In this document: piece after piece, positions 746 through 8,379 of the stretch
How positions within the stretch are numbered: the first letter of the stretch is position 1
Layout: each line of letters starts with the position of its first letter
Origin: Gautieria morchelliformis
Lineage: Eukaryota > Basidiomycota > Agaricomycetes > Gomphales > Gomphaceae
Direction of reading: 5' to 3'
DNA length: 64,000 nt
NCBI GenBank assembly: GCA_015179125.1
Contig: WHVA01000040.1
Span: 186,001-250,000 of the forward strand
The notes under the pieces: model-generated
What the model saw: the letters and a program-made list of their open reading frames with translations, nothing else
Told to the model about the DNA's origin: nothing
The model's database searches: none
Translations under genes and position numbers: made by a program

Positions 746-3700
746 CTCCGCCCCTCGAAGCCCTCGAATTGCGCTCGTTTCCGCCACCGCTTTCCGCGTA
801 TTGCAACGGCAAGATGATACGACCGTCTTCCAGCTTCACCTCTCCGATTCGGCTTCAGTGAAGGCTCGTTCCGCCTCGACTTCCGCTCCGGTCGACATGA
901 GCTCAGTTCCGGAAGAATATCGTGACTTCCCGGACGTGTTCAATAAGGCCAAAGCCGACAAACCTGCTGAACATCGACCTTACGACTTGAAGATAGATTT
1001 GGAAGAAGGAGCATCTCCGCCCCTTGGACCGATCTACTCTCTTTCGCAAAGTGAACTCCTAACTCTCCGAGAGTTCGTCGATGAACATCTCAACATGGGC
1101 TTTATCCGCCCTTCGCTGTCTCCGCACGGCGCTCCGGTCCTCTTCGTCAAGAAGAAGGATGGATCTCTCCGCCTCTGCGTCGATTTCCGCGGACTCAATG
1201 CCCTCACTAAAAAGGACAAATATCCGCTTCCGCGCATTTCCGACTTACTCGACACTCCCCGCAGGGCGAAGATCTACACCAAAATTGACCTCCGGCACGC
1301 TTATCACCTTGTCCGCATCCGGGAAGGTGACGAGTGGAAAACCACCTTCCGCACCCGCTACGGTGCCTTTGAGTGGACTGTCATGCCTTTTGGTCTAACC
1401 AACGCTCCCGCCGCTTTTCAGCGATTCATGAACGACGTATTTTCCGACCTCCTCGACGTATGCGTTCTAGTCTACATTGACGACATCCTCATCTATTCCG
1501 ACACACCGGAAAAACATCGGGAACATGTCCGCGAAGTACTCCGCCGTCTACGCAAACACCATCTCTACGCAAAAGCAGAGAAATGCGAATGGCATCGCGA
1601 CACGGTCGAATACCTCGGCTACATCCTCTCTCCAACAGGTCTTACCATGGCAGAGGACAAGGTCAAGGCAATTCAAGAATGGCCGGAACCCCGACGTGTT
1701 AAGGATGTGCAGTCTTTCCTTGGCTTCGCCAACTTTTACCGGCGTTTCATTTATAATTTTTCCGACATTACTGTTCCGCTCACGCGTCTCACCAGGAAGG
1801 GTGCCCCATGGAATTTCACACCGGAATGCCGTTCCGCATTTGAAGCCTCAAATCGGCCTTCACCACGGCTCCCATACTCGGTTTCTGGATTCCTGATGCC
1901 CAACTTGTACTCGAAACCGACGCTTCTGACTACGCGCTAGCCGCCATTCTTTCCATCATTTCACCCGACGACGGAGAAATTCATCCGATCGCCTTTCATT
2001 CCCGCACCTTTTCCGCCCCGGAACTCAACTACGACGTCCACGATAAGGAACTACTTGCGATTTTCGAAGCCTTCAAAATCTGGAGACATTACCTCGAAGG
2101 TCCAACTTATCCGATCGACGTTGTAACGGATCATAAGAACCTTGAGTATTTTGCAACCACTAAGATTTTGACTCGCCGTCAAGTCCGCTGGTCTGAATAC
2201 CTCTCACAGTTCAACATGGTGATCCGTTTCCGCCCCGGAAAGCTCGGAGCAAAACCCGACGCGCTCACTAGACGTTGGGACGTCTACCCAAAAGAGGGAA
2301 GTAGCGACTATGCCAGCGTTAATCCGCACAATTTCCGCCCAGTATTCTCCACTGAGCAACTGGCATCGTCCCTGCGTGCCACAGCATTGCAGTTTCCGCT
2401 ACTCCGCGCCTCAATTATTATGGACACCGAGTCTCTCCATTCCGACATCCGTTCCGCACTCCGTTCCGACCCCACCTCCGCAACCCACCTCGATGACCCC
2501 ACCAGTCCTGGATGGTCCCTCGATTCCGACGGATTTCTCCGGTACAAGTCCCGGATTTACGTTCCGGACACCAACGATCTACGACTTCGCGTGCTCCAGC
2601 AAAGCCACGATCATCCGCTCTCAGGACACCAAGGCCAGAACAAGACCCTCGACATAATCCGACGTACCTATACTTGGCCTCTCCTCCGCACGATGGTCCA
2701 AGACTACTGCAAGTCATGCACCACCTGTATGCGAGCCAAGCCTCAACGTCACAAACCCTACGGCCTCCTGAAGCAACTTCCGATCCCGGAACAACCGTGG
2801 AATTCAATATCCATGGATTTCATTGAGAAACTTCCTAAGTCATCCGGCTATGATACCATTCTAGTGATCGTTGACCGCCTCACAAAGCAGTCCATCTTTA
2901 TTCCGACCTACGACACCATAACTTCCGCCCAGCTCGCACAGCTCTTTGTGCTCCACGTCTTTTCCAAGCACGGAATCCCTTCCCATGTCACTTCCGACCG
3001 TGGATCCGAATTTGTGTCCTCCTTTTTCCGCACACTCGGCAAGGCTCTCGACATGAAACTCCACTTCACTTCCGGTTATCACCCCGAAGGAGACGGACAA
3101 ACGGAACGTACTAATCAGACCCTTGAGCAGTATCTCCGCGTCTATTGCAACTACCAACATAGCAATTGGTCCGACCTTCTTCCCTCGCGGAATTTGCCTA
3201 CAACAACGCGCCTTCCGCTACCACCGGAATTTCACCCTTTTATGCCAACAAGGGCTACCACCCGAATCTCGCCATCCACCCTGAACGCGACCTCGCCTCT
3301 GCAAGAGCCCGAGATTTCGTTGTGGAACTTGACGACCTTCACCAGCACCTCCGAGAGAACATTACCGCTGCCCAGAAGAGATACCAAACTTCCGCCGATC
3401 GGAAACGCCTTCCGCAACCGGCATTCGAGATAGGCGACAAAGCCTTTGTCAAAGCGGAAAACTTCCGCACCACTCGCCCCTCGAAGAAGCTCTCTGAGAA
3501 ATACCTCGGTCCTTACGAGATCATCGCTAAGGCCGGCAGTCGTTCTTTCACCCTCAGACTTCCTGACAATATGCGCGCAGTACATCCGGTATTCCACGTC
3601 TCATGCTTGAGCCAGCAGTTCCGAATACAATTCCGAATCGAGAACAACCTCCGCCTCCGCCAGTCGTCATCGACGGAGAACCGGAATATGAGATTTCGGA

Positions 3701-3999
3701 AATTCTCAACTCCAAGCTCGACAGAAGATACCGCTGCCAACTCCAGTACCTAGTCAAGTGGGCAGGCTATGAAAACACTGACGAAGAGACTTCGTGGATT
3801 TCCGCCACGGAACTTGACCACGCCTCTGACCTCGTCTCTGATTTCCACAAGTCATATCCTGACAAGCCTGGCCCCATTTCCGCGCCCTAGTCATTCCGAC
3901 CTCATTTCCGACGCCCATTGATTCTTACAGTTCTCAAGTCATTTGTCAAAATCCGATTAATTTCCCGTTACTCTATTTTCCGACACTTCAAGAAATTAT

Positions 4000-5244
4000 C
4001 TACAAGTCCTTGATACCCCTACTCCTCCCCATTGTCTCCGCCTCGACCTCTTTTTCCGCTTCCGGCTCTTTTTCCGCCTCCCCTACCTCGACACTCACCA
4101 ACTCCATTTCCACCCTTTCCCTCGTTTCCGCCCCACCGCTCGAACCCGTTCCCGCCCCAACTCCCTGCTCCCGCAGCCGCGCATCCATTCGGTCCCGGAC
4201 CAAATCATTCCGCCACCTCATTTCCCGCGTCAACTGCTGTAGCACTGTGGACATAACAGTCATCTGGTTCTGAATCGACAGAACCTGATGCTGTTGAACC
4301 TCGGCCATATCGATCATGATATCCCGGATTTCGCGTTGCTGTTCCCGCATGGCCCTCAGCGACCCGGCGATGTCGAGGAGCGGAGAAGCCATGGTGAACC
4401 GGTTCAACACCGCCTGTGCCGACTTTCCGGTCACCGGAAAAGATTCCTCGGCCCTCCCTCCGCTCGGTCCCGGTTCCGCCTTCGGATTTGACTCCTCAAC
4501 CTTCTGTTTCTTTCGCTCCAGCCTCGAAGCGCACCCGTCCACGACGCAGCGCCTTTTCCTGTCACGGCACTGGTCGCACGACGTTTCCCGTGGATTGCTC
4601 GACCACGTGCAATCCACCCCCTTAGACTCGCATGGGTCACAAGGGGCCTTTTCCTCATCGCCGTCCCGAGTTTTCCGCTTCTTAGTCGCGGGATTTTCCG
4701 GCCCCAGTTCACGGAGTTCTAACATCCGACTCAACTTCTCCTTTCGAGCCTTCTGGAATGCGTCCGCTCGAGTTTTCCGTTCCGCCACAAGGTTCACCGG
4801 GGTCGCAATCTCCTTTTGCTTCCCTTTTCCTTCCGGAGTCGGTGTACTTTCCGCCGAACCTTCCGAGTCTGACTCTGACTCGTCCTGAACATGATTCTGG
4901 AAGAACTCTAGTTAATTTCAAGATCATTTCCGCCGGACATTTCCGACTCACCTGATCCCTTTCCGCTTTCTCCGCAGCCGCTTTCTCTGCAGCAGCCTTG
5001 TCCGCAGCAGCCTTCCGTGCCGCATTCCGTTTCCGTTTCTCTTCACGGACGCGCTCCTCCTCCTCGCGGCGTTCGCGCTCTTTCCTCTCCTGCTCCTTCC
5101 GCTCCTTCTCCCGACGTTCTTTCTCTTTCCGCCAGCTTCCTCAGCCTCGCGTTTCTCGGCCATTTCCTTTTGCGCGAGCATATCAGCGAAGTGCTGTTTC
5201 ATCTCCGCGCTGGACATCTTAGAGAAATCTACTGGGGCACTCAT
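4000..5244 (-). other. Antisense accessory ORF of the Ty3/gypsy element with a zinc-cluster motif
   Basis: On the strand opposite to pol, between the chromodomain and the LTR, lies an ORF block beginning 'MSAPVDFSKMSSAEMKQHF'. A very charged K/R/E-rich segment follows, then six cysteines spaced CX2CX6CX10CX2CX6C, which fits the fungal Zn2Cys6 binuclear cluster consensus. After that come a basic stretch, a likely coiled coil (about 4230-4400) and an acidic C-terminal tail rich in EAEKE-type repeats. It looks broken (about one break). The zinc-cluster spacing is seen directly. DNA binding is inferred from the family, and an unrelated Cys-rich fold cannot be excluded. Confidence 0.6.
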
Positions 5245-5366
5245 GATGGAATAGAGAGAAGACGCGTTTGTCTTTCAGCCTATATTTCAAACTCCGACGC
5301 GTTTGTTCACAGGTCACGTGATTCCGACTTGTGGTCTCGCGGGGCTCGACCTTAGAAGGGAGATAC

Positions 5367-5984
5367 TGTTACGACCGTTCATTTCCGACTTCCGACCCTC
5401 AGTTCCGCCATACATCCGCCTCTCCAATAGTTCCGCCACACGTTCCGCCCCTCCGACATTTCCGCCATTCCGCCCCTTGTACATTTCCCTTGTTCTTTCG
5501 ACTCTATTACTCGGACCCACCGGATCTACCTCGCCATTCATCAAAACCATATATCCGGTCACCCTTGTAGTTCGTTGTCAGATATGTTTTCCCGACCCCT
5601 TGTTCTTTGCCATTGTTCTACCTTACCCTGAACCCCCCTTGTAGTCCCATTGTTCCCAATTAGTTAGTTCCCACACATTGTACTCGACTTCCGCTTCCTC
5701 CGGAATTTGCTTAGTACAACACCATTACTTGTTGCTCTGCGCTTTGTATAAAACCCCCCTCATGTATGTCTGTTATTCTGCAATCAGATAATCACCTTCG
5801 ATACTTGATTTCCTTCGCTCCATCTCCTGTTCTTAGCACAGCGAGTCTAGCAAGATCTCAGTCTCTCTCTCAGCCTTCCGTCTTCCGCCTTCCACCTCAG
5901 TTCCGACTCAAGTTCCGACCAAACCTCTGGTCCAGTACTTTCCGACTTCCGGCTCATTTCCGAACTACCTAGGATGATAGTTCA
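5367..5984 (+). repeat. LTR of the Ty3/gypsy element
   Basis: It begins TGTTACGACCG directly after a purine-rich tract, as expected for a 3' LTR. It contains a TATA-like box (gtataaaacc, about 5746) and ends at ...TAGTTCA (5984). I count about 16 TTCCG copies in roughly 620 bases. The following bases (TTGGGGGCGCAACC) look more like an internal leader than host flank. The right boundary is therefore a best guess, and this could instead be the 5' LTR of a second, truncated copy. Confidence 0.6.
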
Positions 5985-6033
5985 TTGGGGGCGCAACCTA
6001 TAAGTTGAAGCCGCTGTCCTTTCCAGTTCCGAC

Positions 6034-8379
6034 TTAGTGGAAATCTCAATACGTAACATGCTTTTGCTAAGAGAATCCCTACTGAGCTGTGATATCCCGC
6101 ACCGAACCACAATCCGCAGCTTAATTGGAAAGGCATGGGATCACAACTTCAGAGAACTCAAAAAGGAGCTAGCAGTAAGTTTATCTCGTGAATTGTATAG
6201 GAATACTAAATCTCACACTTCATATACTAGCAATCGGTTGGGAAGATATCACTTACAATAGACATATGGGATGATAAGAGTATGCGTGCGTATGGAGCTG
6301 TAACTGCTCACTACTTACTTCATGGGTCAACATCGATGTCACTGGCTGGTAAGGGAGAGCTGGTGCTATGTGCTGCTCTGATCAGTTTCCTTCCAATGCC
6401 TGGCTGCCACTTTGGTCAGGATCTTGCGAAGGGTTTGCTTTTTATCACAGATCGTGTCAACATAACGGACAAGGCAAGCTATTTATTTTCTCACACAGTT
6501 ATCACAACTAAATCCCTGTAGATTATGTTTGTCACTACAGATGGTGCATCTAATATGGCCGCAATGATGCATGACTTTGAACATCTCCTAATGGCGCGAT
6601 TCATAGATTTTGATAGTGCTAATCAACAAATCATGTAAGTTTCGCTATTATTGAATAGCCTCAGTCTTCTTACTGTATTTAGCTGCTTCCCACCTCGTCT
6701 TCATGTCACCGTTGCCGTCATGCTACGAGAATGCACAAGCATCGAGGCATTAGAAAATTCTACTGGTGATTTTGGCCTGACTGAGGAACCGGTAAATCCT
6801 TCTAGTCAGACACCTGCACAGGCCTTACAGCGCGATCCGGTTGCGATCGCGCGCAACATTGTGAACACAATTCGGACCTCCCAACTTCGCCGTGAGGAAT
6901 TTAAAGAGATAGTTTCAACTGGCAACCATCGAGCATGCTGGCTCAATGATCAGAAGATGCCTTACCAAATGGCACATGTCACCCTTATTCGGGATAGTCC
7001 AATCCGATGGGGATCATCGTATATGATGATTGAACGGACATTGTATCTTCGTCAGGTAAGTCGTTCTGGTGCTATTGACGAATATGAAATGCTAATGTTT
7101 TTTAGGCAATTGAAGTTTATACTTCACCACCAGTCATGAGTACTGTCTTCAAGCAACGACTCACAAACAACGAATGGGCCGTTCTGAAGGATATAAAAGA
7201 TGTATTAGAGGCAAGTCTTGTTTATCTCTTTAACCTAAGTGCAATACTTATTCCATCAAGCCGGCTCATGCTCTACAAGCTGTTATGTGCACTGAACACA
7301 CGCCTATCCTTGCTTGCGTACTCCCAGCTTTCGATGCCCTCCTATCATCTTGGACACGGATGCGCAAGGAGCCTTCAAAGGCACACCTAAGAAAGATGAT
7401 CGATGCAGCTATTGAAAAAATGACCTCACAGTACAACAAGCATCGGTTTTCAAAGGCTCATATTATTTCTATTGGTATGTGGCAAATAGATACAATGTGA
7501 GTTTGCTAATCAAGCCTTGGCCAGTTCTTCATCCATCGCTCAGATTTCGGTGGATTGAAAGGAATTGGCTGACCAATCAGGTTGCATTTGCTAAACGGAC
7601 TATTCTATCAGAGGTAAGTTATCACACTCTGCTATACAATGAAAAGTGACCATGATCACCTAGCTTGCAAAATACAACGGGTGTCAACCAGCCATTCAAT
7701 CTACCAGAGAGACCATAAACCTACCAGGCTTGTCACGCAATGTCTACACACTCCTTTTCGGCCAGGGAATCGATGAGACTCAAACAGGGCGTACCTCAGG
7801 CTTACCATCAATCGAAGAAGAATGGGACTCTTATTGTCATGCTGCGAACTGGCCCGACATATATAGTGTCGACCTAGTAAAATGGTGGGATGTGAGTAAT
7901 AATATCTTTGTTTGATTCAACATTCTAATCATAACCAGCACAACAACGGAAACTATCCGCGACTTTCTCATTGGGCACTCGACTACCTCCCAGCACAAGC
8001 GTCATCAGTCCCTGCGGAGCGGCTCTTCTCTTCTAGTGCAGAGACAGATACACGTCGCAGAAACCACATATCACCCTATCTGATGGAGCAACTCCAGATG
8101 CTCAAATTTATGATCAAGAAGGCACGGCTGGATTTCACGGCTAGCTGGAAGTGGGAGGAGAAAGATATAGAACGGGAGAACACATGGCAAGACCAGGGGT
8201 TCTCAGCATGTGTGCAGAACCTTCACAACGACTTTGACTGGCAGATGGATATATTGAGTGACAAGGATGCACAGGAGATCGATAGGGAGGCCAATAGGGG
8301 ATCTGGGAGGGACTCAACAGATCTAGAGCCCGAAGAGTTTACTTTTGAGAGCTGTGATGAATGGGAGGAACTTAAGTAG
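6034..8379 (+). mobile_element. hAT-family DNA transposon (transposase lacking its N-terminus)
   Basis: The transposase is encoded in about eight exons, readable in phase from about 6034 to the stop at 8379. It carries the hAT landmarks: 'LTIDIWDD' (first catalytic Asp), 'VTTDGASNM' (second Asp), a middle helical region, and a C-terminal dimerisation domain with 'LSHWALDYLPAQASSVPAER' then 'RLFSSSAE', followed by an acidic tail. Two introns appear to be GC-AG (6474-6521 and 7211-7260); the others are GT-AG. I found no stop or frameshift inside the exons I could follow. The N-terminal BED zinc finger and start codon are missing: sequence upstream of 'HRTTIRSLIGKAW' runs into the gypsy LTR/leader at about 6030. 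No terminal inverted repeats were identified. Confidence 0.85.

Follow-up and report, generated by a model that had tools for sequence, protein, structure and literature searches.

A family-specific dispersed pentamer and an antisense zinc-cluster-like gene in a Ty3/gypsy chromovirus of Gautieria morchelliformis

The stretch of Gautieria morchelliformis DNA analyzed here (contig WHVA01000040.1 of assembly GCA_015179125.1, positions 186,001 to 250,000; its full 64,000 nucleotides are referred to as the window) contains a 5'-truncated copy of a Ty3/gypsy chromovirus in which the pentamer TTCCG and its reverse complement CGGAA are both enriched at the nucleotide level, including in coding DNA. 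The word is specific to the family. A sister chromovirus in the same host encodes a closely similar integrase and chromodomain with different pentamers, CCGAG and CTCGG, and this is the strongest new fact of the analysis. Between pol and the 3' long terminal repeat (LTR), the element carries an antisense gene for a protein with a Zn2Cys6-like cysteine cluster; this gene bears the mark of protein-level selection and has been exchanged as a cassette among copies. We see roughly an even chance that the element marks its own DNA in this way and that its antisense protein binds the CGGAA sites across the element, in an anti-silencing or activating role resembling that of VANC proteins on VANDAL transposons.

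Abundance of TTCCG and CGGAA across the element

The copy occupies window positions 746 to 6058 and comprises the following parts.

746..3890, plus strand: pol, truncated on its 5' side, with reverse transcriptase (RT), integrase (INT), Tf2-like SH3 and chromodomain regions (from Pfam matches, the junction at 746 and motif counts); the frame is broken in the window copy
3603..3890, plus strand: chromodomain, 3' of the integrase (Pfam Chromo, 35.6 bits; cut-off, 25.1)
3891..5366, no strand assigned: spacer between pol and LTR, containing the antisense gene (from the identity profile; 26 TTCCG and 1 CGGAA on the plus strand)
5367..6058, plus strand: 3' LTR (TGTTACG...CGTAACA), 692 bases (from LTR pairs and LTR ends; 16 TTCCG and 1 CGGAA)

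Expected counts were taken from base composition and from 300 dinucleotide shuffles. In pol, TTCCG occurs 37 times (composition, 3.6; shuffles, 6.5 with a maximum of 15) and CGGAA 16 times (composition, 2.4; shuffles, 4.3 with a maximum of 14). The corresponding expectations for TTCCG are 3.0 and 5.5 (maximum, 13) in the spacer and 1.2 and 1.5 (maximum, 6) in the LTR. A first-pass annotation of this DNA had reported about 16 TTCCG in an LTR block of roughly 620 bases where about one was expected, and 15 are indeed present in 5367 to 5984; its element end at 5984 has to be corrected, as the LTR runs from 5367 to 6058.

The comparison set consisted of 20 further loci fetched from the same genome. 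The eight that were counted, each with both LTRs, contain 116 to 128 TTCCG and 26 to 32 CGGAA per copy. The sites are spread over LTR, gag, pol and spacer. In L015 the mean spacing is about 53 bases per site, and gag and its leader contain 27 TTCCG compared with 4.0 in dinucleotide shuffles. No helical phasing of the sites was seen. Depletion of other CpG contexts was considered as a cause and rejected, as most of these contexts are near expectation in pol and none is strongly depleted.

The background of the window is normal, since the counts in positions 8001 to 64000 match expectation (TTCCG, 57 compared with 54 to 55; CGGAA, 51 compared with 52 to 53). In the DNA flanking the fetched copies, most stretches contain 0 to 2 sites; higher numbers occur beside L011 (5 and 4), L023 (4), L024 (3) and L028 (5), the flank of L011 being part of a related element. 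Across the genome, triple clusters of TTCCG numbered 9664 + 9672, compared with 620 + 620 for the reversed pattern.

Synonymous-codon control

Synonymous-codon shuffles, which preserve the protein and its codon usage, were applied 500 times to each long pol open reading frame (ORF; at least 600 amino acids). The observed TTCCG count was reached by none of the 500 shuffles in 11 of 11 such ORFs, and the CGGAA count by none in 10 of 11 (L016, 45 of 500). As the copies are 91 to 99% alike, the 11 ORFs amount to about one test. In the 1257-amino-acid pol ORF of L009, for example, 49 TTCCG were found where 15.3 were expected and 15 CGGAA where 5.1 were expected (0 of 500), and TTCCG sites in the pol ORFs occupy all three frames. 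The gag ORF of L015 behaved similarly (TTCCG, 14 compared with 3.2; CGGAA, 10 compared with 3.0; 0 of 500 each), as did a gag-side ORF of L022 (TTCCG, 12 compared with 2.9, 0 of 500; CGGAA, 9 compared with 3.5, 1 of 500). For the shorter pieces of the window copy, 2000 codon shuffles were made. TTCCG counts were reached by none of them in RT and INT and by 24 in the chromodomain piece; CGGAA was significant in INT (3 of 2000) and not in RT (225 of 2000). In antisense ORF A of the window the CGGAA count was reached once in 2000 shuffles, and in ORF B the result was not significant (312 of 2000).

When all 512 reverse-complement pentamer pairs were ranked by z against codon shuffles, TTCCG/CGGAA came first in pol (64 compared with 20.6; z, 11.8), was top in the integrase-chromodomain region (z, 9.6) and led the ranking in each of two ORFs on the gag side (z, 8.6 and 6.9; gag, 24 compared with 6.2). 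The best pair of any shuffle stayed below z 4.3 to 4.7 in 95% of cases, and ten control ORFs (L050, the L028 flank and eight of the 12 ORFs in the window with 220 or more amino acids) gave z values of 3.2 to 4.0. The first-pass annotation had described the pentamer as lying mostly in one orientation, which holds for the LTR and the spacer but not for coding DNA, where CGGAA is enriched as well (L009 pol, L015 gag). It had also named codon bias and base composition as possible causes, and the excess persists under the codon control (0 of 500 in 11 of 11 pol ORFs and in the two gag-side ORFs).

A sister family with a different word

The locus L049 contains the integrase and chromodomain of a different chromovirus of the same genome. 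It is 73% identical over 610 codons to its counterpart, and synonymous sites are saturated between the two. This sister family is represented by L049 alone, through 2001 bases of integrase-chromodomain DNA. In it TTCCG is at background (4 compared with 3.4 expected), and the excess lies in CCGAG (17 compared with 5.2) and CTCGG (11 compared with 4.5), neither count being reached in 1000 codon shuffles. As a pair, CCGAG/CTCGG (28 compared with 9.6; z, 7.3) ranks first of 512, and 1000 shuffles peak at z 6.4 for any pair. The counterpart of L049 in L009 contains three CCGAG and three CTCGG together with 23 TTCCG and 10 CGGAA. The different word of L049 therefore argues against codon usage, composition and genome-wide mutation bias, and family-specific pentamers are consistent with family-specific recognition of double-stranded DNA. 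On whether gypsy families that lack the antisense ORF share the enrichment, a question raised in the first-pass annotation, the sister gives half of an answer: its integrase-chromodomain DNA has no TTCCG excess but has a CCGAG/CTCGG excess of its own.

Among the places listed, clusters of the sister word occur in pairs 6.95 to 6.99 kb apart that bracket integrase matches in C2 and C91, and we read these paired clusters as putative sister LTRs. Genome-wide, triple clusters of CCGAG are weakly above the control (1106 + 1101 compared with 910 + 861). A second LTR type of different sequence, with dense TTCCG clusters, was observed at G000:C2:100123-111360 and at C1:128544.

Identity, boundaries and copies of the element

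In the window pol, Pfam matches were obtained to RVT_1 (3.5e-41), Integrase_H2C2 (4.9e-20), rve (2.3e-8), SH3_Tf2-1 (2.3e-18) and Chromo (8.7e-9). RVT_1 precedes Integrase_H2C2, rve and a C-terminal Chromo, all above cut-off, as is characteristic of a chromovirus. The full-length element measures about 8.0 kb, with bounds taken from paired LTRs. The window copy is truncated on its 5' side at base 746, since this is the base at which the alignment of every one of the 20 fetched loci begins. With a 2-kb probe, at least 40 matching places were obtained in the 122-Mb genome, the window included (the best 40 of 1302 candidates). LTR-like direct pairs were found in 19 of the 20 fetched loci, some of them clipped by the end of the locus or contig; L025 has no pair, and the pair of L013 is only 85% alike. 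Target-site duplications of 5 bp were recognized by eye in 5 of the 12 listed loci (L015, L016, L019, L022 and L026), and in the other seven the flanking bases differ or are ambiguous.

A conserved antisense gene exchanged as a cassette

The spacer contains an apparent two-exon gene on the minus strand, between the chromodomain and the 3' LTR.

4952..5244, minus strand: antisense exon 1 (MSAPVDFSKM...), highly charged; the frame is broken in the window copy and open for longer in the second copy of L015
4897..4951, minus strand: predicted intron of 55 nucleotides, GTGAGT...TTCCAG, phase 0 (pattern match; frame arithmetic by hand)
4000..4896, minus strand: antisense exon 2, with the Zn2Cys6-like cluster, a linker and a long helix (ORF translations, alignments and substitution rates)
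4546..4641, minus strand: six-cysteine cluster CDPCESKGVDCTWSSNPRETSCDQCRDRKRRC, C-x2-C-x6-C-x10-C-x2-C-x6-C
4168..4383, minus strand: predicted helix of 72 residues, ORF residues 139 to 210 (AlphaFold2; confidence mostly above 90)

The two frames are probably joined by splicing, as judged from the intron pattern. Ten sequences were compared for this pattern: it matched in six, which are all of the window type (window, L012, L016, L018, L026 and L028), and did not match in the other four (L022, L024, L025 and L027). The L025 protein is 30% identical to that of the window, and a candidate intron of 47 nucleotides (GTAAGT...ACAG) was noted by eye in L025 at the same place and in the same phase. 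A TAG near residue 260 of exon 2 is present in many relatives and absent from the window copy.

The first-pass annotation had recognized an antisense ORF with Zn2Cys6 spacing, which is present at 4641 to 4546 on the minus strand and now has support as a conserved gene. Protein searches with it gave at least 149 and at least 151 matches, fragments included (the best 144 of 699 and 147 of 616 candidates). The ratio of nonsynonymous to synonymous substitution rates (dN/dS) was 0.10 to 0.25 in 19 of 28 sequence pairs. The remaining pairs were window-L014 (2.04, from very few changes), L020-L026 (0.40) and seven comparisons with L025 (0.40 to 0.56), for which synonymous sites are near saturation. 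The antisense ORF thus looks like a conserved gene under protein-level selection.

L022, L023 and L024 are 98 to 100% identical to the window copy up to about 3745, 94% in the next bin, 62 to 88% over 3946 to 5345, and again 90 to 100% in the LTR of those that have one. For L025 the values are 96 to 100% up to 3945 and 38 to 68% over 3946 to 5345. On this profile, the antisense gene has been exchanged as a cassette among otherwise nearly identical elements. In the cassettes of L024, L027 and L025, the CGGAA pair ranks on top with z values of 4.5 to 4.6, barely over the 95% level of shuffle maxima (4.3 to 4.4). Aligned CGGAA sites were retained at 6 of 11 positions between the window and L024 (24% for other pentamers) and at 3 of 9 between the window and L025 (4% for other pentamers). 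As a separate observation, L011:8009-9004 is part of a related neighboring element; it has TTCCG sites of its own and an antisense exon 1 resembling that of L025.

The zinc cluster and its predicted fold

The spacing C-x2-C-x6-C-x5..14-C-x2-C-x6..8-C was found in 11 distinct cluster sequences in the window and in L009 to L049, and the six cysteines, with CVVDG at the last one, are invariant across six aligned sequences from three lineages. In Zn2Cys6 domains the basic half comes first, an order that the native cluster does not appear to follow. Its first half matches positions 15 to 37 of the Zn_clus profile, and the second half in isolation matches positions 1 to 13. When the halves were swapped in silico with a loop chosen by us, scores of 31.4, 29.1 and 23.7 bits were obtained in the three lineages (cut-off, 21). 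Trimmed native pieces scored 20.5 and 19.9 bits, 20.5 being the fair comparison for the window cluster, and one of six shuffles with the cysteines kept in place matched Zn_clus (17.7 bits). The halves of the cluster therefore appear, on sequence, to stand in swapped order relative to Gal4-type domains.

The AlphaFold2 model, built from six sequences, has a mean predicted local distance difference test score of 64.9, with two short helices in the cluster. The 72-residue helix is likely to be a coiled coil in this model, and probably a dimerizing one. In a Foldseek search of the model (E up to 10), all 12 PDB matches were to DNA-binding domains of Leu3, Gal4, Ppr1, Pho7, Put3 or Hap1, all of them Zn2Cys6 proteins; the matches are weak (E, 0.42 to 8.7; root mean square deviation, 2.8 to 17.5). 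A profile search of PDB sequences gave no Zn2Cys6 match and weak matches to the long helix alone. Overall, the protein resembles Gal4-type Zn2Cys6 proteins (PF00172) in its cysteine spacing, basic half, long downstream helix and presumed CGG core, and differs from them in the apparent swap of its halves, a native score below the cut-off and its antisense position in a retroelement.

Other relatives and neighboring sequence

Scans of viral contigs confirmed no relatives. Two loci, L050 and L051, came from a scan of genome contigs, and their records carry the names of bacterial metagenome-assembled genomes (MAGs). L050 (PUOJ01000189.1), filed under a Bacteroidales MAG, encodes a protein distantly related to the query integrase (31%), has an ORF of 1334 residues and is possibly a eukaryotic contaminant contig; no dispersed motif was found in it by the pentamer-pair scan. 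In the window itself, hAT transposase-like fragments at 6651 to 8379 and an ORF resembling a copia-type gag at 3 to 242 on the minus strand were noted by eye.

Relation to known systems

Each VANC protein binds a short motif that recurs along the VANDAL element encoding it and hypomethylates this element, and related VANCs differ in motif (PMC5735166). As far as the passages compared go, the likeness to VANC/VANDAL (PMC5735166, PMC10398659) consists of an element-encoded protein, a short motif over the element's own DNA, family specificity of the motifs and a high turnover of motif and protein. The family-specific short motif dispersed over the element is found here too, for the sister in its integrase-chromodomain DNA alone. 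VANDAL is described as an Arabidopsis Mutator-like DNA transposon with motifs of 8 to 9 bp, often in tandem noncoding repeats, and with demonstrated binding and demethylation (PMC5735166). In contrast, the fungal element is an LTR retrotransposon with an antisense zinc-cluster gene, a 5-bp CGG-type motif that also lies in coding DNA, and putative binding. The VANC domains DUF1985 and DUF287 were not listed in a Pfam scan of the antisense ORF up to E 1, a scan that involved no direct comparison with VANC.

Conserved antisense ORFs between pol and the 3' LTR are likewise described for most copies of the plant LTR retrotransposons Grande, RIRE2 and Retand (aORF-3R; PMC7264820, PMC11963269). The TRP28 domain of Retand is predicted to bind DNA, and the function of the antisense ORF is stated there as unknown (PMC7264820, PMC11963269). 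In the passages compared, no zinc cluster is ascribed to TRP28, Retand belongs to a non-chromovirus lineage, and dispersed motifs are not mentioned. The antisense gene brtn of Boty/BcGypsy1 from Botrytis cinerea (Zhao 2011, cited in PMC7264820 and PMC8365987) provides a fungal gypsy-type case, likened here by its description alone. According to these sources, then, antisense genes in LTR elements, including fungal brtn, are already known, as is self-recognition through motifs in DNA transposons of plants. The combination of sites within coding DNA, family-specific words and an apparently half-swapped zinc cluster in a fungal chromovirus was not found in the literature searched. The first-pass annotation had expected self-recognition of this kind, if present, to be new, which the plant precedent (PMC5735166) qualifies; the pairing of an antisense zinc-cluster gene with a dispersed motif was unreported in our literature search, which left subscription journals mostly outside its scope.

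Candidate readers of the word

A nucleotide-level word that is present in both orientations and differs between sisters fits best with a sequence-specific factor acting on DNA. The CGG triplet is the classical core bound by Zn2Cys6 proteins, and as CGGAA and CTCGG both contain CGG, the antisense zinc-cluster protein is the obvious candidate reader. The density of sites suggests chromatin coating rather than promoter use. Given the VANC precedent and these two facts about the motif, we prefer self-recognition for anti-silencing or activation, with binding of CGGAA by the antisense protein about evenly balanced and its exact role less certain than that. The antisense gene would then encode a Zn2Cys6-like protein with a half-swapped cluster and a long helix that recognizes CGGAA/TTCCG, a word maintained once in about 53 bp throughout LTR, gag, pol and the antisense gene itself. 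The protein could coat the element, with some three sites to each nucleosome length, such that chromatin stays open or silencing is countered, and it could switch on LTR transcription in trans, for its own family only. Related families would diverge by changing the word, as to CCGAG/CTCGG in the sister, and elements swap their antisense cassettes.

Several observations weigh against self-recognition by the antisense protein. The protein is tied to the motif by circumstantial evidence. Among the matches listed in two protein searches, none lies at a sister locus, and the codon pattern of CVVDG gave no sister-locus match in C2, C10, C91 and C102 among the first 100 of 381 places. On these searches the pairing of motif and protein stays within the TTCCG family; the sister spacer between pol and LTR is estimated at about 1.4 kb, which leaves room for the gene, and its sequence lies outside the DNA compared. 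Near the second LTR type at C2:100123-111360, neither antisense type is among the matches and places listed, and this type could be another TTCCG family without the antisense gene, which would count against the proposal. Antisense ORFs in their native order score 15.3, 16.7 and 12.2 bits, below the PF00172 cut-off of 21. The CGGAA pair ranks third in window exon 2 (z, 3.5) and sixth in L018 (z, 2.7), within the shuffle range, and its retention between L024 and L025 is hardly better than that of other pentamers (2 of 12 compared with 7%). Part of the antisense gene is missing from 4 of the 20 fetched copies (L009, L017, L019 and L021). In three of these (L017, L019 and L021) the LTR pairs are 99.4 to 99.85% alike, so the gene is not needed in cis and is either trans-acting or dispensable. 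Furthermore, a simple DNA site would not be expected to show the sense bias seen in L015 (122:28) and in the LTR (16:1). Finally, the VANDAL21 sites described as bound lie in noncoding DNA (PMC5735166), whereas coding DNA is loaded in the Gautieria element.

It is unlikely, although worth weighing, that a host activator or chromatin factor reads the motif, a different factor for each family, and that the antisense gene serves RNA export, integration control or a similar function. Such a factor would account for a sister motif at loci where no antisense gene was detected among the matches listed and for the very similar LTR pairs of copies with a damaged gene, and contact between the antisense protein and CGGAA is, after all, something that we infer. 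However, a separate factor would be required for each family, together with selection on about 150 sites, far beyond the need of a promoter; moreover, the number of TTCCG is normal in the rest of the window, and CGGAA is the top pair in three of the five antisense-gene sequences scanned.

We consider it improbable, and more so than a host factor, that UUCCG repeats of the sense RNA serve packaging or nuclear export by binding Gag or some other factor. The sense bias, which is 26:1 in the spacer in addition to the values given above for L015 and the LTR, is what such a signal would produce. However, CGGAA exceeds codon shuffles in the L009 pol (15 compared with 5.1; 0 of 500), and the two orientations are nearly equal in gag (14 and 10) and in the sister (17 and 11). 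This double-stranded signature of both orientations is not expected from an RNA signal.

A mutational origin, in which the pentamer would arise from errors that the reverse transcriptase of the element, or some enzyme of the host, makes in a context-biased way, is very improbable. Context-dependent mutation is compatible with the codon-shuffle results, and two neighbors with a single mismatch are also raised in pol (ATCCG, 13 compared with 3.8; CTCCG, 19 compared with 5.2). However, the sister from the same genome shows a different motif, most other CpG contexts and neighbors are near expectation, and sites occur in all three frames and on both strands. In addition, TTCCG sites decay after insertion, since CpGs within TTCCG change between paired LTRs: over 14 pairs, 5 of 235 such CpGs differ, compared with 13 of 309 other CpGs (numbers too small to establish a protection of TTCCG CpGs from decay) and 97 of 9501 columns overall. 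Codon usage or base composition, which a C-rich sense strand (33 to 35%) and frequent CCG and TCC codons might have suggested, is rejected with practically no weight left to it, as synonymous shuffles of the L009 pol ORF yield 15.3 TTCCG where 49 are observed and dinucleotide shuffles of the LTR yield 1.5 where 16 are observed.

Beyond self-recognition in this one family, a broader form of it is possible, if rather doubtful: each LTR family of this fungus would write its own CGG-type word, coding DNA included, an exchangeable half-swapped Zn2Cys6 reader would block silencing, and brtn and Retand TRP28 would be similar readers. For the antisense gene described here a candidate target can be named, a word that occurs some 150 times in the element itself, and the CTCGG of the sister provides a natural specificity control. 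If self-recognition by the antisense protein is correct, sequence-specific anti-silencing would extend from plant DNA transposons to fungal retroelements, synonymous codon choice would be seen to accommodate binding sites inside coding sequence, and the protein would represent a new zinc-cluster topology that has shifted in specificity among close relatives.

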